Made by a program: the position numbers and the translations under genes. From the NCBI RefSeq assembly GCF_010119195.1, contig NZ_WRXL01000001.1:868001-932000 (forward strand): DNA of 64,000 nt, given 5' to 3'. Below are positions 1,346 through 58,348 of this stretch, piece after piece; position 1 is the first letter of the stretch; each line of letters begins with the position of its first letter. The DNA is from Haloarcula salina (GTDB lineage: Archaea > Halobacteriota > Halobacteria > Halobacteriales > Haloarculaceae). A model generated the notes under the pieces. The model had not been told where the DNA came from. It did not search any database and saw only the letters and a list, made by a program, of their open reading frames with translations.

Positions 1346-2346
1346 GCGCCGGCGAGAACCCCGTGACGCGCCTGCTCGGCGACGTCGACACGAGCATCAA
1401 GAACTCCGAGTTCGCCGACTGGTACCCGGTCAGCAAGAAGGAGTTCCGCGACACCGTCCGCTCGCCGTGGATCTGGCTGCTGTCGTTCATCTTCATCGTC
1501 CTGTTCGCCCTGCCGGCGATGCTGGGGCTGTACTTCAACATCGGCCAGCAGTTCGCCGACGCCGGCGCGTCGCTGACCTCGGACGCCTACGTGCAGTTCG
1601 CGCTCCCCATCGCCGCGCCGCTGTTGCCCGCCGTCGCCATCGTCATCGGCTACGCCGCCATCGCCCGCGAGAGCGAGCGCGGCTCGCTGAAGATACTGCT
1701 GTCGCTCCCCTACACCCGCGGCGAGATCCTCGCGGGGAAGTTCGTCGGTCGGAGCGCCATCACGCTCATCCCGGTGACGGTCGGCCTGCTGACCGCTCTG
1801 CTCGTGTTGGTCCCCTCCCAGATCGAGGTCGCGTGGGAGACGTACCTGCTGTTCGCGCTGGCGACGATGGCCTACGGCGTCGTGTTCACCGCCTTCGCCA
1901 TCGGCCTCTCGGCGGCGCTGAAGACGGCCCGGCGGACGATGGCCGCGTCGCTCGGCATCTACGTCTACCTGCAGGTGTTCTGGTCGAACCTCGGGCCGGG
2001 CCTCGGTCGGCTCCTGTCCGACCACGCGAACATCTCGCAGGTGACGCGGCTCCACGTCGAACTGTTCGTCTCCCTGCTGAGCCCCATCACGGCCTACCAG
2101 ACGCTCGTCCAGGAACTGCTCCAGGACTCGGCGATCCGCTCGCGAATCCTGCTCACGTCCAGCCCGCAGGCCGCCTGCGAGGAGATGCTCGGCGGCACGA
2201 TCGAAATGACCCAGACCGGCCCGCAGTGCGCTGAGGCCGCGCTGCCGCCGCAGTACGGCACGGTCGCCGTCGTCGGCTACCTCCTGCTGTGGCTCGTCGT
2301 CCCGCTGGTCGCGGGGTACTTCACCTTCGAAGGCAAGGACCTGTAG
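1342..2346 (+). CDS. ABC-2 type transporter, permease protein
   Basis: This 334-residue integral membrane protein has about six hydrophobic segments: near residues 45-70, 90-115, 140-165, 170-195 and 200-220, and one at the extreme C terminus. A soluble stretch with two cysteines lies before the last segment (about residues 270-310). The arrangement matches the NosY/ABC-2 permease group. It overlaps the ATPase gene by 4 bases and must pair with it. The next gene is on the opposite strand, so the operon is two genes long. The large extracytoplasmic loop just before the last helix is longer than I would expect, but I would not read function from it. Confidence 0.9.
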   Translation: MSAGENPVTRLLGDVDTSIKNSEFADWYPVSKKEFRDTVRSPWIWLLSFIFIVLFALPAMLGLYFNIGQQFADAGASLTSDAYVQFALPIAAPLLPAVAIVIGYAAIARESERGSLKILLSLPYTRGEILAGKFVGRSAITLIPVTVGLLTALLVLVPSQIEVAWETYLLFALATMAYGVVFTAFAIGLSAALKTARRTMAASLGIYVYLQVFWSNLGPGLGRLLSDHANISQVTRLHVELFVSLLSPITAYQTLVQELLQDSAIRSRILLTSSPQAACEEMLGGTIEMTQTGPQCAEAALPPQYGTVAVVGYLLLWLVVPLVAGYFTFEGKDL

Positions 2347-2366
2347 CGGCCGTCGCCGCGGACACG

Positions 2367-4565
2367 TCACTCGGGACCGTCGACACCGGTGACTTCGAAC
2401 CGAGCGCCCCCGTCTTCTCCGTCGGTGACGCGGATCTCCCAGCCGTGGGCCTCCGCGATCTGTCTGGCGATCCGCAGCCCGAAGCCGGTCCCGTCCTCGG
2501 CGGTCGAGTAGCCCGCCTCGAACACCTGCTCACGCTCGTCGGCGGGGATACCTGGGCCATCGTCGGCCACGTAGAACCCCGTTCCGTCGTCGAGGAGTCC
2601 GACCGAGACGGTTACCCCCGGTCCGCCGTGTTCGATCGCGTTCCCGAAGAGGTTCTCGAACAGGCCCGATAGCCGGTCGCCGTCGGCCTCGATCGTCCAC
2701 TGCCGGTCCCCGTCGGCCGCATACCGTAGCTCGGCGCCTTCGGTTCCGTCCGCAGCGATCCGCCAGGCGTCGTCGGCCGTCTCCCGGAGATCGACGGGTT
2801 CCGTCGCTCCGAGGTCGACTCCCTCGCGCGCCAGTCTGAGGACGTCGTCGACGATGTCGTGCATCCGACGGAGCGCGTTGTCGATCGAGTCGAGATGCTC
2901 ACTGTCACACGCCTCGCGAGCCAGCATCAGTCGACTCCGAGCCACTTGCAGCGGATTTTGGAGGTCGTGAGAGACGACGCCGACGAACTCCTCTAGGCGC
3001 TCGTTCTGGCGTGCCAACTCCCGTTGCCGTGATTTCACCGCCGTGATATCTCGAAAGGTCCACAGTCGGCCGTACCACGTCCCGTCTTCGCCGACGACGG
3101 GCGCCGTATAGCGGTCGAACACGCGACCGTCGGCGAGTTCGATCTCGTCACGGGCGGTCATGTCGGGGTTTTCGTACAGGGCCTCGACCTTCGCGCGGAA
3201 CGCCTCCGGTTCGGCGACGTGCTCTATCGCCCACTCGAGGGCGACTTCCTCGTCGCCGCGTTCGACGATGTCGCGCGGGATGTCCCACATGTCGAGGAAC
3301 CGCTCGTTGTACGAGACGATCGTATTGTCTTCGTCGACGACGAATATCCCGTCGATGACCGCCTCCTGCTGTGCTTTGAGGATCGACCGCTGCCTGTCGA
3401 TTTTCCGTTCGTGCTCCCGCTGCTCGGTCACTTCGCGGGTGACGCCCACCACGCCCTCGACCATCCCGTCGATCACCAGTGGCGTGAGCCGGTACTCCAG
3501 CACCTCGTATCCGTGTCCGGGGAACTCGCCGCTCACCTCGCCGCGGAGGTCCTCGCGTTCACCGTCGATCAGCTCCTGGTACGGGTCTCCCTCGTACGTG
3601 CTCCGAATCTTCGGTATGAGGTTGCTCGGGTCCCCTTCCAGTTCGTCTCTCGACGTTCCGTAGAACGAGGCCAGGTACTGATTGACGAGTTCGAATCGAC
3701 CCTCAGAATCGTAGATGCAGGCCGATTCCGGCATCGTGTTTATCATTCGCTCGTACCGCCGCAGTTTCCGCTCTCGCTCCCTGAGATCGGTGACGTCGGT
3801 GATGAATCCCTCTAGCGCGTCCGGTTCATCGGCTTCCCCCGGGACTCGGTGTCCGTGTTCCCACATCCACTTCGTGGTGCCGTCTTCGGTGATGATCCGG
3901 TAGGTCACCTCGAACTCACCCCGGGTCGCGAGCGCGTCCTGGACCGTCTCCCAGATCCGGTCGCGGTCCTCGGGATGGAGCACGTCGTCGCCCCAGACCA
4001 CCGCCCCTGCCTCGAAGTCATCGGCCGTGTAGCCGGTCAGGGCCTCGACCTCGCCCTCGACGGTCTCGATCGGCCAGTCCGGCGCGATGAGAGAGCGATA
4101 GACCATCCCCGGAAGGCTACTGATGAGCGACTCCAGTCGGCGGGTTCGTTCGTCGAGTTCTCGCTGAGAGCGGCGTGCGTCGACGGCGTTGCGGATCCGG
4201 TTCGCGAGCAGTTTGTACTGGTCCGTGCCCGACCCCTTCTGGAGGTAATCGGTCACGCCCGCAGAGATCGCGTCGCTCGCGATTTCCTCGGAGCCCTTCC
4301 CGGTATAGAGGATGAACGGGAGGCCGTCGTGAGCCTCACGGACGGTCTCGAGGAACTCGATCCCGTTCTGTCCCGGCATGTCGTAGTCCGAGACGACGCA
4401 GTCGAAACGCTCCTCGGAGAGTCGTTCCAGCGCCACATCGACGCTCGTCGCGGTCTCGACGCACAACCGGTCGTCCTCGTGTTCGAGCACTGTCGCGGTC
4501 ACCTCCACGAGATCCGAGTTGTCGTCGACGTGGAGAACGCGGACCGACTCACCGCTCAGATACAT
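2367..4565 (-). CDS. Hybrid sensor: REC-PAS-PAS-PAS-histidine kinase
   Basis: This is a 732-residue soluble signalling protein with no membrane segments. An N-terminal receiver domain (residues 8-120) has the acidic pair D14/D15 and phosphoacceptor D60 in SDYDMPG. Three PAS domains follow at about 140-265, 275-385 and 395-515. Then come a HisKA domain with His533 in VVSHDLQNPL, and a HATPase domain with an N box (LFENLFGNAIEH), G1 (DDGPGIP) and G2 (GTGFGLRIA). REC first and kinase last is a common haloarchaeal order. The receiver may take phosphate from another kinase or modulate this one. No cognate response regulator gene is adjacent. The PAS ligands are unknown. Confidence 0.93.
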   Translation of the reverse strand: MYLSGESVRVLHVDDNSDLVEVTATVLEHEDDRLCVETATSVDVALERLSEERFDCVVSDYDMPGQNGIEFLETVREAHDGLPFILYTGKGSEEIASDAISAGVTDYLQKGSGTDQYKLLANRIRNAVDARRSQRELDERTRRLESLISSLPGMVYRSLIAPDWPIETVEGEVEALTGYTADDFEAGAVVWGDDVLHPEDRDRIWETVQDALATRGEFEVTYRIITEDGTTKWMWEHGHRVPGEADEPDALEGFITDVTDLRERERKLRRYERMINTMPESACIYDSEGRFELVNQYLASFYGTSRDELEGDPSNLIPKIRSTYEGDPYQELIDGEREDLRGEVSGEFPGHGYEVLEYRLTPLVIDGMVEGVVGVTREVTEQREHERKIDRQRSILKAQQEAVIDGIFVVDEDNTIVSYNERFLDMWDIPRDIVERGDEEVALEWAIEHVAEPEAFRAKVEALYENPDMTARDEIELADGRVFDRYTAPVVGEDGTWYGRLWTFRDITAVKSRQRELARQNERLEEFVGVVSHDLQNPLQVARSRLMLAREACDSEHLDSIDNALRRMHDIVDDVLRLAREGVDLGATEPVDLRETADDAWRIAADGTEGAELRYAADGDRQWTIEADGDRLSGLFENLFGNAIEHGGPGVTVSVGLLDDGTGFYVADDGPGIPADEREQVFEAGYSTAEDGTGFGLRIARQIAEAHGWEIRVTDGEDGGARFEVTGVDGPE

Positions 4566-48781: not shown

Positions 48782-50050
48782 TCAGCGATGCGGGTCAGCC
48801 ACACCGCTCGTCGCCGCCAGCCGGTGCAAGCGATAGGCCCCGCGTTCGCGTCCGTCGTCGTGGTAGATCACCGGCTCCTCGACGGCGACCGCGCAGTCGC
48901 CGTCGACCGCCGCCGCCGTCACGACGCCGTCCGTCTCCAGCGTCCCGACCGCGCCGTCGGCGATGTCGAACAGACGGAGCGCGTGGGCGTCGGCGTCGCG
49001 GTCGCGGAAGTGCTGCGCCCCGGGGACGGCCAGCAGGTCGCCGGCCGCGCCGAGGCCGCTGGCGAATCCGCCGACTGGGGCCGACCAGCGTCGCTCGCCG
49101 TCGAGCGAGACGCCGACAGCGGTGTGTTCGTTCGGGTGGCGGGCGTCGGTCTGGCGGCCCTCCTCGGGGTAGGTGTTGCCGGTGACGAACACCGCGCCCC
49201 CGTCGGTCGCGCGGACGTGGTTCGGGTAGGCGTAGACGGTGTCGCCGGCCACGTCGGTCGGCGTCGCGAGCGGGACGCGCCAGCGTTCGCTCCCGCTCTC
49301 GTTCAGCCGGTAGCCGCAGTAATCGCCGTGGCTCGACAGGACCGCTCCCTCGTCGAGCAGCGCCACGTCGCCGACTCGCCGCTGGCCGTCGGTCCCGGGG
49401 TCCCACATCCAGCGGGGCGAGCCGTCGGCGGCGTCGAGGACGACCAACCCGTGCTGGTGGTCGCCGGGACAGCGGTTGTAGGCGACGGCGACGCGGTCGT
49501 TCCGGACCGACAGTGCGATCGGTGAGGCGTCGGTCGGGTAGGTCCACGCGACCGACCCGTCCGGGCGGAAGGCGTAGACCGCGCTCTCGAAGTGCCGAAC
49601 GTCGTCGCCGTCGGCGTCCGTTCGGCGCTCGTACCGGCGCGCCGCGGCGTACAGCCGGTCGCCGTCGGCGGCGAGGGCGGCGACGAACGGCAGGAGAAAG
49701 CGCGTCTTCTTCTGGGCCGCGCCGAGGTCGGTTCGGGTGTCGTAGCTCCAGCGGACGCCGCCGTCGGCGTCGTGACAGCGGACCTGCCCGCGGGCGCTCC
49801 GCTCGCCGACGGCGACGCCGCCGTCGAACGGGACGGCCGCGACGACGCTCGGGTCGCCCTCGGTCTCGTGACGCCACCGGCGGGTCGGCGGGCCGTCGCT
49901 CGCGATGTCGAAGGCCAGCACGTCCCCGTCGGCGGTCCCGACGACGGCCAGCCCGTCGGCCAGCGCGACCGCCGAACGGCGCCCCTGGTGGCGCGAGCGG
50001 GCCGGGGGAATATCGCCGAGCGACGCGGCCTGTGCGCGCCGGCTACTCAT
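48782..50050 (-). CDS. PQQ-type beta-propeller protein in the cob operon
   Basis: A 422-residue protein of PQQ/WD-like beta-propeller repeats, e.g. VVGTADGDVLAFDIASDG, VYAFRPDGSVAWTYPTD, VVLDAADGSPRWMWDPG and LFDIADGAVGTLETDG. There is no signal peptide, so it appears cytoplasmic. It overlaps DUF3209 by 8 bases and is the last gene of the long cbi operon. The function is unknown; a scaffold for corrin intermediates or a metal sensor are possibilities without direct evidence. Confidence 0.8.
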   Translation of the reverse strand: MSSRRAQAASLGDIPPARSRHQGRRSAVALADGLAVVGTADGDVLAFDIASDGPPTRRWRHETEGDPSVVAAVPFDGGVAVGERSARGQVRCHDADGGVRWSYDTRTDLGAAQKKTRFLLPFVAALAADGDRLYAAARRYERRTDADGDDVRHFESAVYAFRPDGSVAWTYPTDASPIALSVRNDRVAVAYNRCPGDHQHGLVVLDAADGSPRWMWDPGTDGQRRVGDVALLDEGAVLSSHGDYCGYRLNESGSERWRVPLATPTDVAGDTVYAYPNHVRATDGGAVFVTGNTYPEEGRQTDARHPNEHTAVGVSLDGERRWSAPVGGFASGLGAAGDLLAVPGAQHFRDRDADAHALRLFDIADGAVGTLETDGVVTAAAVDGDCAVAVEEPVIYHDDGRERGAYRLHRLAATSGVADPHR

Positions 50051-50414
50051 CGACTGGGAACGCCTCGTGGAGTACGTCGTGGGCCTCGCCGAGGCCGGCG
50101 AGCACGTCCTCGCCCTGCGCGGTGAGGCGGTGGACCGCGCGCTCGGCGTCGCGGACCGCGACGAGCCGGCCCCGGAGGTAGTCGTACTCGGGGTCGTCCT
50201 CGTCGGCGGCGGCGATCTCCTCTTCCAGATCGACGAGCGCGGCGTCGAGGTGGCGCTCGATGCCCGCGAGCGTCTCCGCGTTCGCGAGCGCCTCGATCGG
50301 GCCGTCGAGATGCCCCTCCAGCTCCTGTTCCGCGTGCTGGCGCGCGTGGTCGTCTTCGGTGCCGAGAACGGTCATGAGGCCGAGTCGGAGGGCCTCGATT
50401 TCGTAGCAGCTCAT
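50043..50414 (-). CDS. DUF3209 family protein
   Basis: A 123-residue acidic, helical protein starting MSCYEIEALRLGLMTVLG, matching the DUF3209 family found in cobalamin clusters of halophiles and some bacteria. A helical bundle with a Cys-Tyr-Glu start and a conserved DDPEYDYLRGR segment. Function unknown; because it travels with cbi genes it is a candidate for a missing corrin step or for cobalt handling. It starts 28 bases after the CbiX/2Fe-2S gene. Confidence 0.88.
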   Translation of the reverse strand: MSCYEIEALRLGLMTVLGTEDDHARQHAEQELEGHLDGPIEALANAETLAGIERHLDAALVDLEEEIAAADEDDPEYDYLRGRLVAVRDAERAVHRLTAQGEDVLAGLGEAHDVLHEAFPVDE

Positions 50415-50441: not shown

Positions 50442-51665
50442 TCACAGCGTCTGGTCGACGAGTTCGCTGACGATGCGGTCGCGGTCGAGGTGCGAGGAGA
50501 CGATCTCCTCTGCGTCGCGCTCCCCGACGCCGCCGTACCAGACCCCGTCGGGGTAGACGGCGACCATCGGCCCCTCGCCGCAGCGGCCGAGACACGACGA
50601 GCGCGTGATGCGGGCGTCGCACTGGTCGCTGTCGCGCGCGGCCTGGCGGAGGCGTTCGAGGACCGCGGGCGAGCCCTCGCCCGCGCAGGTCTGGTTCGTG
50701 CAGACCGCGACGTGCTTCTCGGGCGCGTCGTGGACGTGGGGGTCGTCGGCCACGTCCTCGCGGTCGGCGTGTTCGGCCTGATGGGTCAGCGCCCGGAGCA
50801 TCGCCCGCGCGCCGCCCTGGTCTTCCTCGTAGCCGTCGAGTTCGACCTTGTACTTGCAGGTGTCACAGGACATCTCGACGCTCCCCGTGCGGGCCTCCTG
50901 CCAGCGGTCGCCGAGCACGTCGAGCAGGCGTGGATCGGTCCCCAGCGGCTCGCCGGGGGCGGCGTCGACGTACGGGTACTCCTCGTCGAACTCGCGCGCG
51001 CCGTCCTTGATGCGGCCGGTCAGCACGCCGTCGCCGAGCATGTAGGGCACGACGACGACGGCGTCGGGTCGGCTCTTCGCCAGGTCGTGCAGCGTCTCGG
51101 AGAGCAGCGGCTCGGTGACGCCGATGAACGACGCCTCGACCCGCGAGAAGTCGCGGCCCTCGTAGAGCAGGCGGGCGAGCTTGTGTACGTCGGCGTTGGC
51201 GTCCGGGTCGCTGGAGCCCCGGGCACAGACCACGACGGCCACGTCGTCGCGTTCGCGGTCGACGCCCAGGTCGGCCTCCACGCTCGCCGCCCGGTCGTCG
51301 AGCAGGTCGAGGATCGCGGGGTGGACGCCCAGGTGCGCGCCGTTGTTGATGGTCAGTTCGGGGTGGGCCTCGCGGGCCTGCGTGACCGCCAGCGGCACGT
51401 CGTTCTTGACGTGGCTCGCGGCGAACAGCGAGAGGTGGACGACCGTGACCTGTGAGACTGTCGCGGCCAGCCCCGAGACGGCCTCGTCGATGGCCGGCTC
51501 GGCCAGTTCGAGGAACGCCGCGTCGACCGGGATGCCGAGCCGCCCTTCGAGGTCGGCGGCCAGCTCTCGGACCTGCTCGTTGGACCTCTCGCGCCGGGAG
51601 CCGTGGCCGACGAGCAGGACCGCCTCGTCGTCCAGCGCGTCGGCGGCGACGGTCGCTTCGCTCAT
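50442..51665 (-). CDS. cbiX: CbiX chelatase fused to a [2Fe-2S] ferredoxin domain
   Basis: A 407-residue fusion. Residues 15-270 are CbiX with two halves: AVLLVGHGSRRERSNEQVRE (His of the active site) and HLSLFAASHVKNDVPLAV (second His); then VAVVVCARGSSDPDANADV. An intermediate Cys pair is MSCDTCKYKVE (about 264-269). The C-terminal part (about 310-400) is a thioredoxin-like [2Fe-2S] ferredoxin with C-x4-C in VCTNQTCAGE and C-x3-C in SCLGRCGEGP. Chelatases of the CbiX type with Fe-S clusters are known. It overlaps the LAGLIDADG-like gene by 4 bases. Confidence 0.93.
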   Translation of the reverse strand: MSEATVAADALDDEAVLLVGHGSRRERSNEQVRELAADLEGRLGIPVDAAFLELAEPAIDEAVSGLAATVSQVTVVHLSLFAASHVKNDVPLAVTQAREAHPELTINNGAHLGVHPAILDLLDDRAASVEADLGVDRERDDVAVVVCARGSSDPDANADVHKLARLLYEGRDFSRVEASFIGVTEPLLSETLHDLAKSRPDAVVVVPYMLGDGVLTGRIKDGAREFDEEYPYVDAAPGEPLGTDPRLLDVLGDRWQEARTGSVEMSCDTCKYKVELDGYEEDQGGARAMLRALTHQAEHADREDVADDPHVHDAPEKHVAVCTNQTCAGEGSPAVLERLRQAARDSDQCDARITRSSCLGRCGEGPMVAVYPDGVWYGGVGERDAEEIVSSHLDRDRIVSELVDQTL

Positions 51666-52321
51666 CGGACTCGCTCGACGCTCTTTCGGAGCTTGCGCCG
51701 CCGGCTCGGCGCGAACAGCCCCGTCGCGTCGCTGCCCTCGTACAGCCAGTCGCCCAGCGCCGGAGCGGCCTCGTCGGCCACCCCGAACCAGTGGCCCGAC
51801 GACGCCTCGGCGAGGTCGTCGGACGGCGCGTCGACCGGGCAGCGGTCGAGCAGCGTCTGGATCGTCCGGAGCAGGCGCTCGTCTTCGTGGACGAACGAGA
51901 TGCCCACGGCGCCGGCGTCGGACTTGAAACAGACCGTGCCACAGCCCTCCAGCAGGCCCCGGAGGAGCTGGCGGTCGTAGTCGGCGAAGGCGTCGAAGCG
52001 GTAGCCGCCGGCCTCCCCGTCGAAGGGCAGGCCCAGCGCCGCGCTGGCGCGGTCGGCCAGCCCGCCGATGACCTGGACGGTGAACTCCTCCTCGCGGCGG
52101 GTGATCGAGGTGTCGTGGGCGTAGGCCCGCTCGACGATGCGGCGGTCGGCGCGCTCCGCGCCGGCGATGGACGCGAGGCGGCGGGCGGCGGTCTCGTCGC
52201 TCGTCCGCACGGTGACACAGCCGTCTTCGCAGTCGCCGTCGGCGGCGACCCGCCCCCAGAAGTACGCCGTCTCCGGGTGGGCTGCGAGCATGTCCGACGG
52301 CGCGCCGGTCTCGACGCTCAC
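51662..52321 (-). CDS. LAGLIDADG-like protein of the cobalamin operon
   Basis: A 219-residue protein found in haloarchaeal cobalamin operons. It shows two degenerate LAGLIDADG motifs: YFWGRVAADG (residues 20-29) and LLRGLLEGCG (119-128), each followed by a beta-rich stretch (CVTVRTSDE, then VCFKSDAGAVGISFV), as in single-chain homing endonucleases and WhiA. In the second motif the usual acidic residue before Gly is Cys127. No DNA-binding HTH extension is apparent. It overlaps its neighbours by 4 bases. A nuclease role is unlikely; regulation or a structural role in corrin synthesis are possibilities. Confidence 0.72.
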   Translation of the reverse strand: MSVETGAPSDMLAAHPETAYFWGRVAADGDCEDGCVTVRTSDETAARRLASIAGAERADRRIVERAYAHDTSITRREEEFTVQVIGGLADRASAALGLPFDGEAGGYRFDAFADYDRQLLRGLLEGCGTVCFKSDAGAVGISFVHEDERLLRTIQTLLDRCPVDAPSDDLAEASSGHWFGVADEAAPALGDWLYEGSDATGLFAPSRRRKLRKSVERVR

Positions 52322-52590
52322 GGCTGGACCTCCCCGGCGTCGGTCGCCGGCGACCCGTCGGCCGGCACGTCGTGCTCGACTGACTCGACGGTGATTGCGT
52401 CCAGCGGACAGGCGGCGGCGGCCTGCTCGGCGTCGTCCCGGCGGTCGTCCTCGAAGGTGGCCTCGATCGCCGTCCGGTCGTCCGTCTCGACGGCTGCCAG
52501 CCCCTCGCTATCCTCGACGAAGCGGTCGTCGCGGACGAGACAGGCGAACACGCCGTCGCAGGCCTCGCGGTCGATGGTGATTCGGTACAT
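52318..52590 (-). CDS. [3Fe-4S]-type ferredoxin
   Basis: A 90-residue ferredoxin. Cys11 and Cys17 (CDGVFACLV) and Cys61 before Pro (AAACPLDAITVE) are the only cysteines, which fits a single [3Fe-4S] cluster as in bacterial P450-type ferredoxins. It ends in an acidic tail. It sits between cbiH2 (2 bases upstream) and the LAGLIDADG-like gene (4-base overlap), so it probably supplies electrons to a corrin-ring redox step, such as the ring contraction by CbiH or the cobalt reduction. Confidence 0.85.
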   Translation of the reverse strand: MYRITIDREACDGVFACLVRDDRFVEDSEGLAAVETDDRTAIEATFEDDRRDDAEQAAAACPLDAITVESVEHDVPADGSPATDAGEVQP

Positions 52591-52592
52591 GG

Positions 52593-53687
52593 TCAGTAGT
52601 CGTACTTGGTCTCGTAGCCCCGCGGCGTCACCATCCGGTCGTCCCAGACGTACGTGTCCTCGTTGCCCACGAGCAGCGTGGTGGTCATGTCCACGAGGTC
52701 CGTCTCGCCGAGTTCGGGCAGGTCCGCCAGTTCGACGATTTCGACCTGTTCGTCCTCCCGGCCGGCCGCGTGGACCACGCCGACCGGCGTCTCCGGGTCG
52801 CGGTGCTCCAGTAAGATCTCGCAGCACTTCTCGTAGTTGTCCCGGCGCTTGCGGCTCCAGGGGTTGTAGATCGTGATGGTGAACCCCTCCTTGGCGGCGG
52901 CGTGGAGCCGCGACTCGATGGTCGGCATGTCCGTGAGGTGGTCCGACAGCGAGATGGAGACGGTGTCGTTGACCAGCGGCGCGCCGACGCGGGCCGCACA
53001 GGACTGGGCCGCCGGAACGCCCGGGACCACGTCGAAGTCGAGCATCGTCGCCGTCGCGCCCTTGGACTCGACGATCTCCAGGGCGAGGCCGGCAAGCGCG
53101 TAGACGTTCGGGTCGCCGCTGCCGATGATGGCCACGTCGTTGCCCGCCAGCGCGCGGTCGATGGCCTCCTCCGTCCGCGAGACCTCGCCGCACATCGGCG
53201 TGTCGTAGATGTCCTCGGCTCCCTCGGTGATCTCGTCGGGCAGCAGGTCGACGTAGGTCGTGTAGCCGACGATGTGCTCGGCGTCCAGCAGGGCAGCGCG
53301 GGCGCGAGCGGTCATCCCCTCGGGCTGGCCGGGACCGAGGCCGACCGCGATGAGTCGGCCGGGATCGGCGTCGAAGTCGTCGACGGTCGCGCCGACTTCC
53401 TCCTCGTCCGAGGAATCTGACGAGGCCGCGCCGCAGGAACTGCTGGTGGACGAAGACGACGAGGACGACGAAGCGCCACACTCCGAGGTGGTGTCGTCGG
53501 CCTCCGTCGACGGACTCGCCTCGCCGGCCGAGGCGCTCGATTCCGGCCCGCTCTCGGCTCCGCTCGCACCACATTTCGACCCGGTGTTTGCCTCCGTATC
53601 GGTCTCTCCGGCCGATGCCTGTGCCTCGCTCGCGCCGCACTTCGATTCCGTCTCTGTACTCCCGTCGGTGGTGTTGTCAGTGCTCAT
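52593..53687 (-). CDS. cbiH: Cobalt-precorrin-3 C17-methyltransferase CbiH/CobJ with Cys-rich N-terminal tail
   Basis: A 364-residue TP methylase. The catalytic part (from about residue 110) begins LIAVGLGPGQPEGMT and shows GSGDPNVYALAG, VVPGVPAAQSCAA, SLSDHLTDMPTIESRL and NPWSRKRRDNYEKC. It contracts the ring and methylates C17. Its first 105 residues are a Ser/Glu/Ala-rich low-complexity chain with four cysteines, each followed by Gly-Ala: Cys17, Cys39, Cys70 and Cys85 (KCGAS, KCGAS, ECGAS and SCGAA). Such tails are absent from ordinary CbiH. It lies directly after a second CbiH gene (2-base gap) and before the ferredoxin. Confidence 0.92.
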   Translation of the reverse strand: MSTDNTTDGSTETESKCGASEAQASAGETDTEANTGSKCGASGAESGPESSASAGEASPSTEADDTTSECGASSSSSSSSTSSSCGAASSDSSDEEEVGATVDDFDADPGRLIAVGLGPGQPEGMTARARAALLDAEHIVGYTTYVDLLPDEITEGAEDIYDTPMCGEVSRTEEAIDRALAGNDVAIIGSGDPNVYALAGLALEIVESKGATATMLDFDVVPGVPAAQSCAARVGAPLVNDTVSISLSDHLTDMPTIESRLHAAAKEGFTITIYNPWSRKRRDNYEKCCEILLEHRDPETPVGVVHAAGREDEQVEIVELADLPELGETDLVDMTTTLLVGNEDTYVWDDRMVTPRGYETKYDY

Positions 53688-53689
53688 TG

Positions 53690-54613
53690 TCAGAAATCGT
53701 CGACGTCACGCCCGCCGCGCGGGGTGACGAGGAACTCCCGGTAGTCGTTGCGCCAGACGCGCGTCTCGTGGGTGCCGACGACGATGGACGATCCCATGCC
53801 GCCGACCTCCTCGTCGTGGTCGGGCAGGTCGCCCAGCGTCGTGATGGTCTCCGTCTCGTCGTCCAGGTTCCGGCCGGCCGTCCCGCGGCCGGCGTCGTTG
53901 ACGATGGCGGCGGGCACGCCGTCGGCCCGCTCCTCGCGGAGGACGGCGACGGCCCGCTCGTAGTCGCGCCAGCAGTTGTAGAGGACGACGACGAAGCCCG
54001 AGATGGCCGCGGCGCGAAGCTTCTCCTCGATCTCGTCCCAGCCGCGCCACTTGTCCGACAGCGATATCGTACAGAAGTCGTTGGACAGCGGCGCGCCGAG
54101 GTTCGCCGCGCCCGACAGCGCCGCGGTCACGCCGGGGACGATCTCGATGGGCACGTCGTCGGCGTCGTCGGCGTCGGCCATCGTGAACAGCAGGTCGGAC
54201 TTCCCGTAGACGTTCGGATCGCCGCCGGAGACGTGGGCCACGTCCTCGCCGTCCCGGACCCGCGCGAACGCCTCGCGCGCGAGTTCGACCTGTTTGCCCA
54301 TCGACGAGCGGATCAAAGTCTGCGTGTGGCCGTCGGTTCGTTCGAGGACGGTTCCCTCCTCGTCGGCCACCTCGCTGTCGTCGGTTCGGCCCGACAGCGC
54401 GGCGGACTCGGGCGGGAGCGTCCCGTCCTTGCGCAGGAACTCCTGGTAGAGGTTCGAGGCGACGACGCAGTCGGCCGTCTGGATGACGTCCTTCGCGCGC
54501 TGAGTCATGTCGTGGGGGAGGCCCGGCCCGATGCCGACGACGTACAGCGTGCCGTAGTCGTCGGGGGTCGCGGTCGCCGGGGCCGACGCGGCCACGTCCT
54601 CGGTCCCGCTCAT
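53690..54613 (-). CDS. cbiH2: Second CbiH/CobJ-type methyltransferase
   Basis: A 307-residue TP methylase paralogue. It starts after an acidic/Ala leader of about 20 residues with YVVGIGPGLPHDMTQRAKDV; then VSGGDPNVYGKSDLL, VPGVTAALSGAANLG, SLSDKWRGWDEIEEKL and YNCWRDYERAVAVL. It shares the SLSD and NVYG motifs with CbiH at 52593-53687, but is diverged. Two CbiH-type genes side by side are usual in haloarchaea. Perhaps one contracts the ring and the other has a different methylation or an auxiliary role. It overlaps cbiG by 4 bases. Start ATG 54613. Confidence 0.9.
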   Translation of the reverse strand: MSGTEDVAASAPATATPDDYGTLYVVGIGPGLPHDMTQRAKDVIQTADCVVASNLYQEFLRKDGTLPPESAALSGRTDDSEVADEEGTVLERTDGHTQTLIRSSMGKQVELAREAFARVRDGEDVAHVSGGDPNVYGKSDLLFTMADADDADDVPIEIVPGVTAALSGAANLGAPLSNDFCTISLSDKWRGWDEIEEKLRAAAISGFVVVLYNCWRDYERAVAVLREERADGVPAAIVNDAGRGTAGRNLDDETETITTLGDLPDHDEEVGGMGSSIVVGTHETRVWRNDYREFLVTPRGGRDVDDF

Positions 54614-55581
54614 TTGCCGATCGCCACCGTCACGGCCTCGTCGTAGCGGGTCTTCTCGGCCAGCAGGTCGTGCTCGCGGCCGGCGGCGATGGCCGACGCC
54701 TCGGCGATGCCCGGCCAGCCGATGAGTTCCTTCGAGCGCGAGGGGGTCGGTCCCTCGAAGCGCTCCAGCGTCTCCTTCTCGAAGGCGATCACGCCCAGCC
54801 CCCACGCCTCGGCGGCGGCGAGCATCCCCTCCTCGTCGGCCTTCCGCGTGCCGGTGGCGACGAACTCCACGTCGGAGCGGTCGCGGCCGGCCGCGTCGAG
54901 CGCGCGCTCCCACGCGGCGTGGAACTGGTCCACGTCCGCGCCGGCGACGCTGCCACAGCCCAGCACGACGCCGTCGTCGCTGTTGCGCTTGAGGACGGTC
55001 ACGTCGTCGCCGACCACCACCGCCTTCGGGCCGTCGAGGCGCTCGACGGGGCCGAGTTCGTCGTCCAGCACGGCGAGGTTGGTGGCGACCGTCGAGTCGC
55101 CGTTGACGACGTGGGCGTCGAGGGCCTTCGCCCGCTTCTCGACGCCCTGCTTGTCGGCCGCCTCGCTGGCGGTCGTCATCGCCGGGACCGCGCCCATCGA
55201 CGCCAGGTCGTCGGCGACCTGGTTCGCGCCGTGGTGGCCGCCGGTGATGGGGATGGCCCACGTCAGTTCCTCGTCGACCACGCAGATGGCGGGGTCGTCC
55301 CACTTGTCGTCGAGCAGATGGGCGGTCTTGCGCATCGCGATGCCGCTGGCCATCAGGCCGACGAAGCAGTCGTACTCGCCCCAGTGCTCGTCGAACACCG
55401 CGCCGTGGTATTCGAGGACGTCGATGGACTCGTAGCGGTCGCCGATGCCGTCGACGATCTCCTCGGCGGTGTCCATCTTCCGCTCGAAGGCGACGATGGC
55501 GATGTCCTCTGCCACCTCGCCGTCGGAGTCGGGCGCTTTGCAACTGTTCGAACTCGAATCGCCGTCGCTGTCTGTGCTCAT
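54610..55581 (-). CDS. cbiG: Cobalt-precorrin-5A hydrolase CbiG
   Basis: A 323-residue enzyme that opens the delta-lactone of cobalt-precorrin-5A, releasing acetaldehyde. The N-terminal domain has HWGEYDCFVGLMASGIAMRK, VVDEELTWAIPITGGHHGANQVADD and the C-terminal domain has LGCGSVAGADVDQF and FVATGTRKADEEGMLAAAEA. The first 25 residues are a Ser/Asp-rich tail with Cys14 (SNSCKAPDSD), resembling the Cys tail of CbiH. The upstream neighbour cbiF is 426 bases away, unlike the tight spacing elsewhere in the operon. Confidence 0.93.
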   Translation of the reverse strand: MSTDSDGDSSSNSCKAPDSDGEVAEDIAIVAFERKMDTAEEIVDGIGDRYESIDVLEYHGAVFDEHWGEYDCFVGLMASGIAMRKTAHLLDDKWDDPAICVVDEELTWAIPITGGHHGANQVADDLASMGAVPAMTTASEAADKQGVEKRAKALDAHVVNGDSTVATNLAVLDDELGPVERLDGPKAVVVGDDVTVLKRNSDDGVVLGCGSVAGADVDQFHAAWERALDAAGRDRSDVEFVATGTRKADEEGMLAAAEAWGLGVIAFEKETLERFEGPTPSRSKELIGWPGIAEASAIAAGREHDLLAEKTRYDEAVTVAIGK

Positions 55582-55870
55582 GAATGTCCTCCGGCCGGTG
55601 TTCGGTCACACGCGGCTGCCGGCCAGTCAGCCGCTCGGCTACTGCCAGCCATTCCACTCCCAGCTGCTGTCGGCGCGCGCCGGCGCGCTCGGATGGCGCG
55701 CCAGAAATCGTGCGAGGGATGAGCGACCGACAGTCGAAGGGAGCGAATCGGATGGGGAGGCGTGTGGTCTGCTGTTTGGTGCGGTGCTGTGGGGTGGACT
55801 GAAAGGGGCCGGGCGCTCCGGGAAGACGACTGACGCAAGCACGCAAGCGAAGCGAGCGCGCGCAGCGAGG

Positions 55871-55899
55871 TCCTCGACCGGAGCGACCGGGGGCTTTCT
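55871..55899. repeat. 29-base direct repeat, unit 1
   Basis: Starts TCCTCGACCGGAGCGACCGG and ends GGGCTTTCT. The identical unit is at 55931-55959 with a 60-base period. Confidence 0.9.
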
Positions 55900-55930
55900 A
55901 CCTGTACTCGGCACCTCCCGCTACTCCTAG

Positions 55931-55959
55931 TCCTCGACCGGAGCGACCGGGGGCTTTCT
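55931..55959. repeat. 29-base direct repeat, unit 2
   Basis: Identical to 55871-55899. The spacer of 31 bases between them is unrelated. The 29 bases on the minus strand end GGTCGCTCCGGTCGAGGA, which has a short self-complementary part and could act in termination. Confidence 0.9.
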
Positions 55960-56007
55960 GGCGGTTCGCGGTCGCGTCCGCAGTGACCACGGCGCGTCCG
56001 GACCATC

Positions 56008-56922
56008 CTAGTCGTCGGCCTCCTGTGAGTCCGCGTCGCTCCCCCGGTTCGCCCAGTCGCCGTACAGGTACGAACGCTCGTAGTCGTCCCCGCCCACCGC
56101 GTCGCCGATGACGACCATGGCTGAGGCGCGATAGCCGGCGTCTTCGAGTTTCTCGCCGATGGTCGCAATCGTTCCTTCGATGACGTCCTCGTCGGGCCAG
56201 GACGCGTGGTACACGGCCGCCACGGGCGTGTCGGGGTCGTGCCCGTCGGCCAGCAGGCGGTCCATCGTCTCGCTCACGGCGTGGGTCCCCAGATAGATAC
56301 AGGTCGTCACGTCGCCCATGCCGACGAACTCGGAGATGTGGTCCTCCTCGGCGTCGAGCGTCTTGCCCTGCGGGCGGGTGAAGGCGACGTGGTTGGCGAC
56401 CTCGTTGAGGGTCAACTGCGTGCGCATCGTCGCGCTGGCGGCGAACGCCGAGGTGACGCCGGGGACGATGTAGGTGGGGACGCCCTCGTGTTCGAGCGCG
56501 TCCATCTGCTCCAGGGCGGCCCCGTAGATGGCCGGGTCGCCGCTGTGGAGGCGAACCACGGTGTCGCCGGCCTCGTAGGCGTCGCGCATCAGCGGGATCA
56601 GCTCCTCCAGGTCCTTGCCGATGGACGACACCGTCTCGGCGTCGGCGCAGTACTCGTCCAGCAGTTCGCTGTTGACCAGCGAACCGGCGTGGACCACGAG
56701 GTCGGCGTCGGCGAGCAGGTCGCGGCCGGCGACGGTCAGCAGGCGGGGGTTCCCGGGGCCGGCCCCGACGAAGGGGATGCCCGCCTGCTCGTCACCGGCG
56801 CTGTGCTCGTAGACGCGGTCGTCCCGGTTCCCGGCGACGGAGTCGATGGCGTCCTGCGGGTCCGTCTCGTCCGCGGGCGGGGCGTCGGGCGTCTCGCCGT
56901 TGGCAGCGTCGTCGCCGGTCAT
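56008..56922 (-). CDS. cbiF: Cobalt-precorrin-4 C11-methyltransferase CbiF
   Basis: A 304-residue TP methylase with an acidic N-terminal extension of about 48 residues. The core begins IPFVGAGPGNPRLLTVAGRD, then LHSGDPAIYGAALEQMDAL, VPGVTSAFAASATMR, AFTRPQGKTLDAEEDHISEF and YLGTHAVSETMD. It methylates C11 of cobalt-precorrin-4. It overlaps cbiL by 4 bases. ATG 56922 (MTGDDAANGE) is the start. Confidence 0.93.
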   Translation of the reverse strand: MTGDDAANGETPDAPPADETDPQDAIDSVAGNRDDRVYEHSAGDEQAGIPFVGAGPGNPRLLTVAGRDLLADADLVVHAGSLVNSELLDEYCADAETVSSIGKDLEELIPLMRDAYEAGDTVVRLHSGDPAIYGAALEQMDALEHEGVPTYIVPGVTSAFAASATMRTQLTLNEVANHVAFTRPQGKTLDAEEDHISEFVGMGDVTTCIYLGTHAVSETMDRLLADGHDPDTPVAAVYHASWPDEDVIEGTIATIGEKLEDAGYRASAMVVIGDAVGGDDYERSYLYGDWANRGSDADSQEADD

Positions 56923-57713
56923 CGTCGCACCTCGTCGCCGCAGAGGGCGGCCTCGGAGCGTTCCTGGCGTTCGAGGTCGCCGATGGACTGCGCACCGCCG
57001 TCGGTAACGACCCCGCTCTCGTCGGCCGCTTCGAGGAACGCGTCGGTGGCCTGCTCGACGCGGGCGTCGGGTCGCTCGGCGTAGGCCAGCGTGTAGTAGT
57101 CTCGCTCGTCGATGTCGGTCGGGTCGTCGGTGACGACCGTCTCGCCCTGCTCCATGAACAGCCGGCGGCCGTACACCACGTCGTAGCCGGCCTCGGTCAG
57201 GCCCTCGTGAGTGGCCGGCGCGTCGGTCACCTTGAACAGAATCATTCGGTCGGGACCGGTCGGCGACGCGCCCTGATCGGCCTCCCGCAGGGCGAGGCTG
57301 GAGCCGGCGGTGACCTCGACGCCCAGCGCGGTGGCGAACGCCGTCACCGCGCTGACGCCGGGGACGACTTCGAGGTCGACCGCGGGGTGAAACGCCGCGA
57401 GCGTCCGCCGGAGGTGACCGAACGTCGAGTAGACGTTCGGATCGCCCAGCGTGACGAAGGCGGCGTCGCCGTCGCGGGCGGTCGGCGCGATCTCCGCGGC
57501 GGCCTCCTTCCACGCCGCGCGCAGTTTCTCCTCGTCGCGCGTCATCGGGAAGTCGAGGTCGCCGATCCGCGATTCCGGGACGTGCTCGGTCGCGACCGAG
57601 CGGGAGAGTCGACCCGGCGAGTACACCACGTCGGCCGACTCCAGCGCGCGCTTGCCACGGACCGTCACGAGGTCGGGCTGACCGGGACCGAGGCCGACGC
57701 CGTAGAGCGTCAT
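56919..57713 (-). CDS. cbiL: Cobalt-factor II C20-methyltransferase CbiL
   Basis: A 264-residue TP methylase. LYGVGLGPGQPDLVTVRGKRAL begins the fold; FVTLGDPNVYSTFGHLRRTL and VVPGVSAVTAFATALG follow. It methylates C20 of cobalt-factor II, the first methylation after chelation. The C terminus ends LCGDEVRR with Cys258. It overlaps cbiT and cbiF by 4 bases each. Confidence 0.93.
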   Translation of the reverse strand: MTLYGVGLGPGQPDLVTVRGKRALESADVVYSPGRLSRSVATEHVPESRIGDLDFPMTRDEEKLRAAWKEAAAEIAPTARDGDAAFVTLGDPNVYSTFGHLRRTLAAFHPAVDLEVVPGVSAVTAFATALGVEVTAGSSLALREADQGASPTGPDRMILFKVTDAPATHEGLTEAGYDVVYGRRLFMEQGETVVTDDPTDIDERDYYTLAYAERPDARVEQATDAFLEAADESGVVTDGGAQSIGDLERQERSEAALCGDEVRR

Positions 57714-58348
57714 CGCTCGCCTCCGTCGACCGCGTTGCCGTCGGCCGTCTCTGCGGTACTCGGACTGCCGCCGCTCGTTCCGCCACAGCCGTCAGCGGCC
57801 ACGTCCGCGCTCGCGCTGCCGACGAGCATGTAGACGGGATTCTCGGAGTCGAAGCTGGTCGCGCCGGCGAGCTCGTAGCCGTGACTCACCTGGAACTGGA
57901 CGACCTCTTCCAAGATGTCTCGCTCGCGGAAGGCCTCGGTCGCCGCGCCGGCGACCTCCAACCGCGAGACGTTCATGACGATTCGGTCGACGCCGGTCTC
58001 GACGGCGTGGTCGAGGACGGCCTCGTAGTTGCGCGAGCCGCCGAGAAAGAGCGCGTCGGCGTCGTCGGGCAGGCCCTCGGGGGCCTCGGCCTCGCGCAGT
58101 TCGACGGCGGCGCTGGTGTCGTTCGCCGCGAGGTTCTCGCGGGTCACGTCGAGTCGACCGGCCTTGCGTTCGAGCGCAGTGACCCGCCCGGCCCGGCGCG
58201 CCGCCTCGATGGTGACGGCCCCGGTACAGGAGCCGACCTCGACGAAGTGGTCGGACTCGCTGAGGGCGAGTTTGCTTGCGAGGACGGCCCGGACCTCCGG
58301 CTTGGTCGGGCCGGCCTTCGCGTCGTGTGGGAGCGAGACGCGTGACAT
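57710..58348 (-). CDS. cbiT: Cobalt-precorrin-6B C15-methyltransferase/decarboxylase CbiT
   Basis: A 212-residue Rossmann SAM methyltransferase (VEVGSCTGAVTIEAAR is motif I), with FLGGSRNYEAVLDHA and IVMNVSRLE. CbiT methylates C15 and removes the acetate carboxyl at C12; its CbiE partner gene is at 39331-40092. After about residue 180 a Ser/Gly/Asp-rich tail holds Cys188 (DGCGGTSGG). I start at ATG 58348 (MSRVSLPHDAK); the in-frame ATG at 58459 would add a non-haloarchaeal leader. First gene of the operon; the promoter with a palindrome lies upstream. Confidence 0.93.
   Translation of the reverse strand: MSRVSLPHDAKAGPTKPEVRAVLASKLALSESDHFVEVGSCTGAVTIEAARRAGRVTALERKAGRLDVTRENLAANDTSAAVELREAEAPEGLPDDADALFLGGSRNYEAVLDHAVETGVDRIVMNVSRLEVAGAATEAFRERDILEEVVQFQVSHGYELAGATSFDSENPVYMLVGSASADVAADGCGGTSGGSPSTAETADGNAVDGGER

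Follow-up and report, generated by a model that had tools for sequence, protein, structure and literature searches.

A conserved cysteine-bearing arm on CbiH1 and its co-inherited module in haloarchaeal cobalamin operons

The 64,000-nucleotide stretch of Haloarcula salina DNA analysed here (the window; RefSeq assembly GCF_010119195.1, contig NZ_WRXL01000001.1, positions 868,001 to 932,000) contains a vitamin B12 operon in which CbiH1, the ring-contraction enzyme, begins with a disordered arm punctuated by cysteines. This arm is a real feature of haloarchaeal B12 synthesis, so far undescribed and under strong selection. It forms part of a wider module in which the strictly conserved thiol arm is accompanied by a Cys of the CbiH1 core, an unusual ferredoxin and two or more genes that have no assignment, with a testable link to oxygen. 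The module bears on how oxygen-respiring organisms run the oxygen-sensitive cobalt-early B12 route, by which Halobacterium produces its B12 under aerobic conditions (PMC3403918). In haloarchaea this route has gaps at the CbiD and CbiJ steps, and the Haloferax cluster includes four conserved genes without an assignment (PMC8305020).

Results

CbiH1 carries a selected thiol arm

The operon lies on the minus strand, as do all genes and protein parts of the window described below, in the order cbiT, cbiL, cbiF, cbiG, cbiH2, cbiH1, ferredoxin, unnamed protein, cbiX and DUF3209. CbiH1 (52593–53687) consists of an N-terminal arm of residues 1–109 (53361–53687) and a cobalt-precorrin C17-methyltransferase/ring-contraction core (52593–53360). 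The arm contains [S/K/E]-C-G-A sites in which Cys17, Cys39, Cys70 and Cys85 are each followed by Gly-Ala. The core scores 303 bits against TIGR01466 (CbiH/CobJ, precorrin-3B C17-methyltransferase; cut-off 246) and 135.6 bits against TP_methylase (E = 3.1e-39; cut-off 27.8), and matches PDB entry 2zvb at 3e-53; the Pfam domain starts at residue 111, past the arm. Structure prediction run without an alignment gave a poor CbiH1 model, in which the arm showed no secondary structure. The first ATG of CbiH1 falls immediately past the cbiH2 stop, and the arm is translated, because its Cys and Gly codons are under purifying selection, as detailed below.

CbiH1 was present in 105 of 194 haloarchaeal genomes sampled. 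Comparing 100 operons beyond the window and about 28 further haloarchaeal CbiH1 loci, we found an arm with at least one Cys in 122 of the 129 genomes inspected, the other seven being tail-less. The tailed proteins come from about 50 genera and have one to five arm Cys, usually three or four, and conservation of the CbiH and CbiG arm Cys extends over eight haloarchaeal families.

Detailed statistics on 98 CbiH arms, 38–147 residues long, showed that both the number and the spacing of the Cys vary between genomes: one Cys occurs in 3 genomes, two in 6, three in 35, four in 48 and five in 6, at distances of 10–48 residues (median 15), with no CxC or CxxC. Cys makes up 4.15% of arm residues and His about 0%. 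Gly follows 334 of the 342 arm Cys, though it accounts for only 9.4% of the arm, and Lys directly precedes 180 of them, which could favour the thiolate. In within-genus codon comparisons, the ratio of nonsynonymous to synonymous change was lowest for Cys (0.031) and for the Gly behind it (0.042), and reached 0.40 one position further on; it was 0.47 for Ser, 0.77 for Thr and about 2.0 for Asp/Glu and the remaining residues. The codon pairs are not independent, but the values being contrasted come from the same arms. Constraint in this disordered, otherwise free arm thus falls almost exclusively on Cys and its Gly.

In an 864-kb sample of the source genome, in which a simple composition score called about 736 genes, Cys formed 0.735% of residues, and the other Cys-bearing terminal tails were nearly all zinc-ribbon-like (CxxC) or Arg-rich, the latter probably wrong-frame open reading frames. 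The DNA pattern for [S/T]-[K/N]-C-G-[A/G] occurs ten times in the source genome: two occurrences lie in a gene frame, both in CbiH1, and eight in short or non-coding frames. We therefore rejected the idea of a general haloarchaeal peptide.

Cys-bearing ends of the other operon enzymes

An earlier note on this DNA had placed terminal Cys motifs in four operon proteins and judged that this looked non-random; the wider co-inherited module and the tie to oxygen respiration, treated below, were not part of it. All the residues are where it put them, and the excess is supported both by conservation of the CbiH and CbiG arm Cys and by a probability of about 7e-5 for Cys-bearing terminal tails on four of six operon enzymes, a value that depends on our crude gene caller. 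When the Cys were counted over many haloarchaea, however, only three of the four proteins held up: the arm Cys of CbiH and CbiG are kept far beyond close relatives, that of CbiL in about half of the loci, and that of CbiT hardly at all.

CbiG, the cobalt-precorrin-5A hydrolase (core 54610–55512, assigned by profile matches), has a single arm Cys, Cys14, in an N-terminal arm (55513–55581) that reads SNSCKAPDSDGEV here and resembles GGHCSTPDSDGEV in other genomes. The 264-residue CbiL ends in an arm (56922–57011) with Cys258 (ALCGDEVRR); its arm Cys, in the motifs CGDE or GCEGGDCGGHR, occurs in 48 of 101 tailed loci and in none of seven tail-less ones. Operon alignments showed no conserved terminal arm Cys in CbiF, which acts between CbiH and CbiG in the pathway. 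The C-terminal tail of CbiT (57713–57814, Cys188) has its Cys in just 4 of 102 tailed loci and probably lies outside the feature, of which we rejected it as a part. One of these four CbiT proteins comes from locus L100 (about 2230–3024), where no cbiL lies between cbiT and cbiF; its C-terminus is a Cys arm of the CbiL type (ERAEACESGDCGGHQR), and it looks as though a deletion had joined this arm to CbiT.

The arm is inherited with a module

In the CbiH1 core, Cys166 (53190–53192), within an MCGE motif, is Gly in tail-less haloarchaea, methanogens and other Halobacteriota. Directly downstream, overlapping or abutting cbiH1, is the gene for a three-Cys Fer4_15 ferredoxin (52318–52590). Its Cys14, Cys20 and Cys64 (alignment numbering) are invariant in 113 proteins, none of which has the four-Cys [4Fe-4S] pattern of CxxCxxC plus a remote Cys; all 113 read C-x2-[V/I]-x2-C with one remote Cys, Val or Ile taking the place of the middle Cys. 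The next gene (51662–52321) encodes an unnamed, divergent LAGLIDADG-like protein with a conserved CxxxC (LAGLIDADG_3 in 13 of 25 members, best 2.7e-5). It is followed by the cobaltochelatase CbiX (50442–51665), in which profiles and alignment reveal an MxCxxC motif and a C-terminal thioredoxin-like [2Fe-2S] domain (about 50496–50723), and by a DUF3209 protein (50043–50414; PF11483, 2.9e-53, 180 bits against a cut-off of 25) with invariant Cys3, His27, His112 and His116 and a homologue in 2ehw/TTHB059.

Across 114 tailed loci, the CbiH1 arm and core MCGE were each present in 114, the CbiG arm Cys in 111, the ferredoxin and DUF3209 each in 113, and the CbiX [2Fe-2S] domain in 110. Across seven tail-less loci, MCGE, ferredoxin, DUF3209 and the [2Fe-2S] domain were each found in none, and the CbiG arm Cys in one, whose start is uncertain; no tail-less genome reached the DUF3209 family cut-off. 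All five CbiX found in tail-less haloarchaea (L136, L137, L138, L149 and L182) end in long His-rich tails, at the place where tailed genomes have the thioredoxin-like domain.

A CbiH1 tree, from a quick search and with several weak nodes, gave the arm a single origin, and no tail-less haloarchaeal sequence fell within the tailed clade. This indicates that the arm arose once, together with core Cys166, the ferredoxin, the LAGLIDADG-like protein, DUF3209 and the CbiX [2Fe-2S] domain; repeated independent losses of the module were rejected on the same tree. The module has since been handed down vertically or by transfer, because families f1, f2 and f4 contain both tailed and tail-less types. Other core cysteines (CbiT Cys41, CbiF Cys92 and Cys208, CbiG Cys72 and CbiX Cys147) track the operon lineage, not the arm. 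The CbiD and CbiJ families were absent from both tailed and tail-less haloarchaea tested, which disfavours a module that replaces them.

The arm is absent from oxidase-less lineages

We searched 391 haloarchaeal genomes for heme-copper oxidases and found none in four; three of these four bear CbiH1, all tail-less. The oxidase-less genomes include Halodesulfurarchaeum HSR6, G129 (locus L138) and G093, the last without a CbiH1 match. Among the tail-less genomes are Halodesulfurarchaeum formicicum HSR6, a strict anaerobe (PMC5437934), Halalkaliarchaeum AArc-Sl, a facultative sulfur reducer (PMC6176080), and Halorhabdus amylolytica.

Part of the module recurs outside haloarchaea. Thermus thermophilus and Leptospira interrogans each have a B12 cluster in which DUF3209 adjoins a CbiX with a 2Fe-2S-type Cys4 domain, which for Thermus was read from the sequence, Pfam giving no report there. 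Both organisms are aerobes, and the recurrence lends independent support to a link with oxygen. Their clusters depart from the haloarchaeal layout: in the stretches examined, neither CbiH nor CbiG bears a Cys arm, and neither a three-Cys ferredoxin nor a LAGLIDADG-like gene lies alongside. Both organisms have a CbiD.

Discussion

We tentatively favour, at a probability of roughly 0.4, the reading that the arms are flexible thiol carriers which, in cells that respire oxygen, reduce cobalt-corrin intermediates or hold them at the steps around ring contraction. We infer the thiol chemistry, its substrate, the electron donor and the hand-over, and envisage them as follows. The arms would belong to a haloarchaeal toolkit that allows the oxygen-sensitive cobalt-early route to operate despite oxygen respiration. 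Each K/S-C-G-[A/G]-S bead would supply one reactive thiol, and several beads on CbiH1, with one on CbiG and sometimes one on CbiL, would create a high local thiol level around the enzyme of ring contraction and those next to it in the pathway. These thiols might reduce over-oxidised substrate, bringing cobalt-factor III to the precorrin level; alternatively, a Co-S bond might hold the cobalt while the intermediate is used or handed on. Electrons could come from the adjoining ferredoxin, whose cluster would have one open ligand position. In favour of such arms, the enzymes that bear them, CbiL, CbiH1 and CbiG, are those around ring contraction; the arm is inherited with core Cys166 and the ferredoxin directly behind cbiH1; and the variable copy number and spacing of the Cys are as expected of independent single-thiol sites.

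Several observations weigh on the other side. Tail-less Halorhabdus and Halalkaliarchaeum possess heme-copper oxidases, so oxygen respiration does not strictly need the arm and the link between arm and oxidase, behind which stand two independent lineages, is suggestive. The Thermus CbiH, from an aerobe, has no arm. Finally, since the arm has a single origin on the tree, co-inheritance of its companions counts as one event, with no repeated co-loss.

A more specific version is unlikely: that the repeated K-C-G-A/G-S beads capture unfinished cobalt-corrins through Co-S bonds and pass them among CbiL, CbiH and CbiG, letting the 'anaerobic' pathway run in air. Such a genetically encoded chain of beads would be a swinging arm of a novel type, serving a metal intermediate that is unstable. 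If the arms do hold cobalt-corrins, this would be a new way of handling unstable metal intermediates, and Haloferax volcanii offers usable genetics among these organisms.

Of the rivals, cobalt binding ranks first, ahead of ferredoxin docking and then disulfide linking. The earlier note had suggested that the tails bind cobalt or an Fe-S (iron-sulfur) cluster. Cobalt binding, whether as the ion or as an axial thiolate to the corrin, survives as a minority view, and we consider it somewhat doubtful that binding or buffering of cobalt (or iron) ions by the thiols has replaced the His-rich cobalt tail of CbiX. All five tail-less CbiX have such a tail, tailed genomes have the [2Fe-2S] domain instead, and one metal-binding tail has apparently been swapped for others; DUF3209 has its invariant Cys/His set, some CbiL tails contain GCEGGDCGGHR, and the CbiX His-rich tails have been proposed as a metal store (PMC7689651). 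The CbiH arms themselves, however, are unlike most storage tails: with His almost absent, neither CxC nor CxxC, and a minimum Cys spacing of 10, the 98 arms match neither a metallothionein-like nor a poly-His tail, and their carriers are methyltransferases that act after cobalt insertion, not the chelatase.

As for a fixed Fe-S site, the 98 arms lack the constant three or four Cys at constant spacing of [4Fe-4S] ligands, and the range of one to five Cys without CxxC speaks against that part of the note's suggestion. An arm Cys could instead be the missing fourth ligand of the ferredoxin cluster and, in this role, dock the ferredoxin onto CbiH1 and CbiG so that electrons can pass. The exactly three invariant Cys with an open Val/Ile position, the adjoining, co-inherited gene and the sufficiency of single-Cys arms in some genera fit this proposal. 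We nevertheless think it decidedly unlikely: one ligand would not require several Cys per arm, and three-Cys Fer4_15-type ferredoxins are generally thought to hold [3Fe-4S] clusters with no partner ligand.

Disulfides that cross-link a CbiL-CbiH-CbiG complex, or that make the arms an oxygen-sensing switch, would suit enzymes so closely spaced in one operon and pathway; this seems very improbable given that the CbiL arm Cys is absent in about half of loci, that CbiG has a single one and that the intervening CbiF has no conserved one. That the arms are a neutral lineage habit, with Cys persisting by descent, accords with the single origin and with the frequency of acidic tails in haloarchaeal proteins, and is scarcely credible: a ratio of 0.03 at CbiH Cys against about 2 at acidic neighbours rules out neutral evolution for CbiH, and Cys is retained in 122 of 122 tailed genomes.

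Known systems offer partial parallels. In the work of Moore and colleagues from 2013, CbiH60 of Bacillus megaterium reportedly needs dithiothreitol and an Fe-S centre for cobalt-factor III, and is said to extend at its C-terminus into a long portion that resembles nitrite/sulfite reductases and contains a [4Fe-4S] centre. By this account it resembles CbiH1 as the CbiH of a cobalt-early aerobe with an extra terminal part tied to redox chemistry; CbiH1 differs in its N-terminal disordered thiol arm and separate three-Cys ferredoxin, and it has no such C-terminal extension, since the core reaches the C-terminus and Pfam gives TP_methylase alone. CbiX-L, with its His-rich and MxCxxC C-terminal extension (PMC7689651, PMC8390425), also bears a low-complexity metal- or redox-type tail on a B12 enzyme, and MxCxxC is found in haloarchaeal CbiX too; there, His runs sit on the chelatase, and here Cys-Gly beads sit on CbiH, CbiG and CbiL. 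A precedent for Co-S holding is human MMADHC (CblD), in which Cys261/262 form a Co-S bond with cobalamin (PMC13376404). This protein is likewise partly disordered and has its Cys in a flexible loop; it is a proposed analogue, without homology, that traffics finished cobalamin and does not act in biosynthesis. We found no published account of CbiH arms in the open-access literature searched, which is weak evidence for novelty.

Additional observations on the operon

Operons of the Halodesulfurarchaeum/Halorhabdus type lack the cysteines that track the operon lineage, which are almost invariant in most haloarchaea; one of these residues, CbiT Cys41, is part of the S-adenosylmethionine-binding loop. 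In the LAGLIDADG-like protein, the second motif reads GCGTVC where a catalytic acidic motif would be expected, and by its sequence it looks like a homing-endonuclease-like protein that has been put to a new use within a B12 operon. The DUF3209 structure model consists of three helices, for which no significant fold match was found; its Cys3 and His27/112/116 set resembles a metal site, and the structure of the Thermus homologue, 2ehw, has been solved.

Two intergenic regions also stand out. Between cbiF and cbiG, which are about 430 bp apart, an exact 30-bp direct repeat (gtcctcgaccggagcgaccgggggctttct) occupies 55870–55899 and 55930–55959. At locus L047 (5834–6626), cbiG is separated from cbiH2 by a gene for a short-chain dehydrogenase; the window has no such gene there, and the few other congener operons whose layout was examined have a cbiG–cbiH2 gap of similar size.

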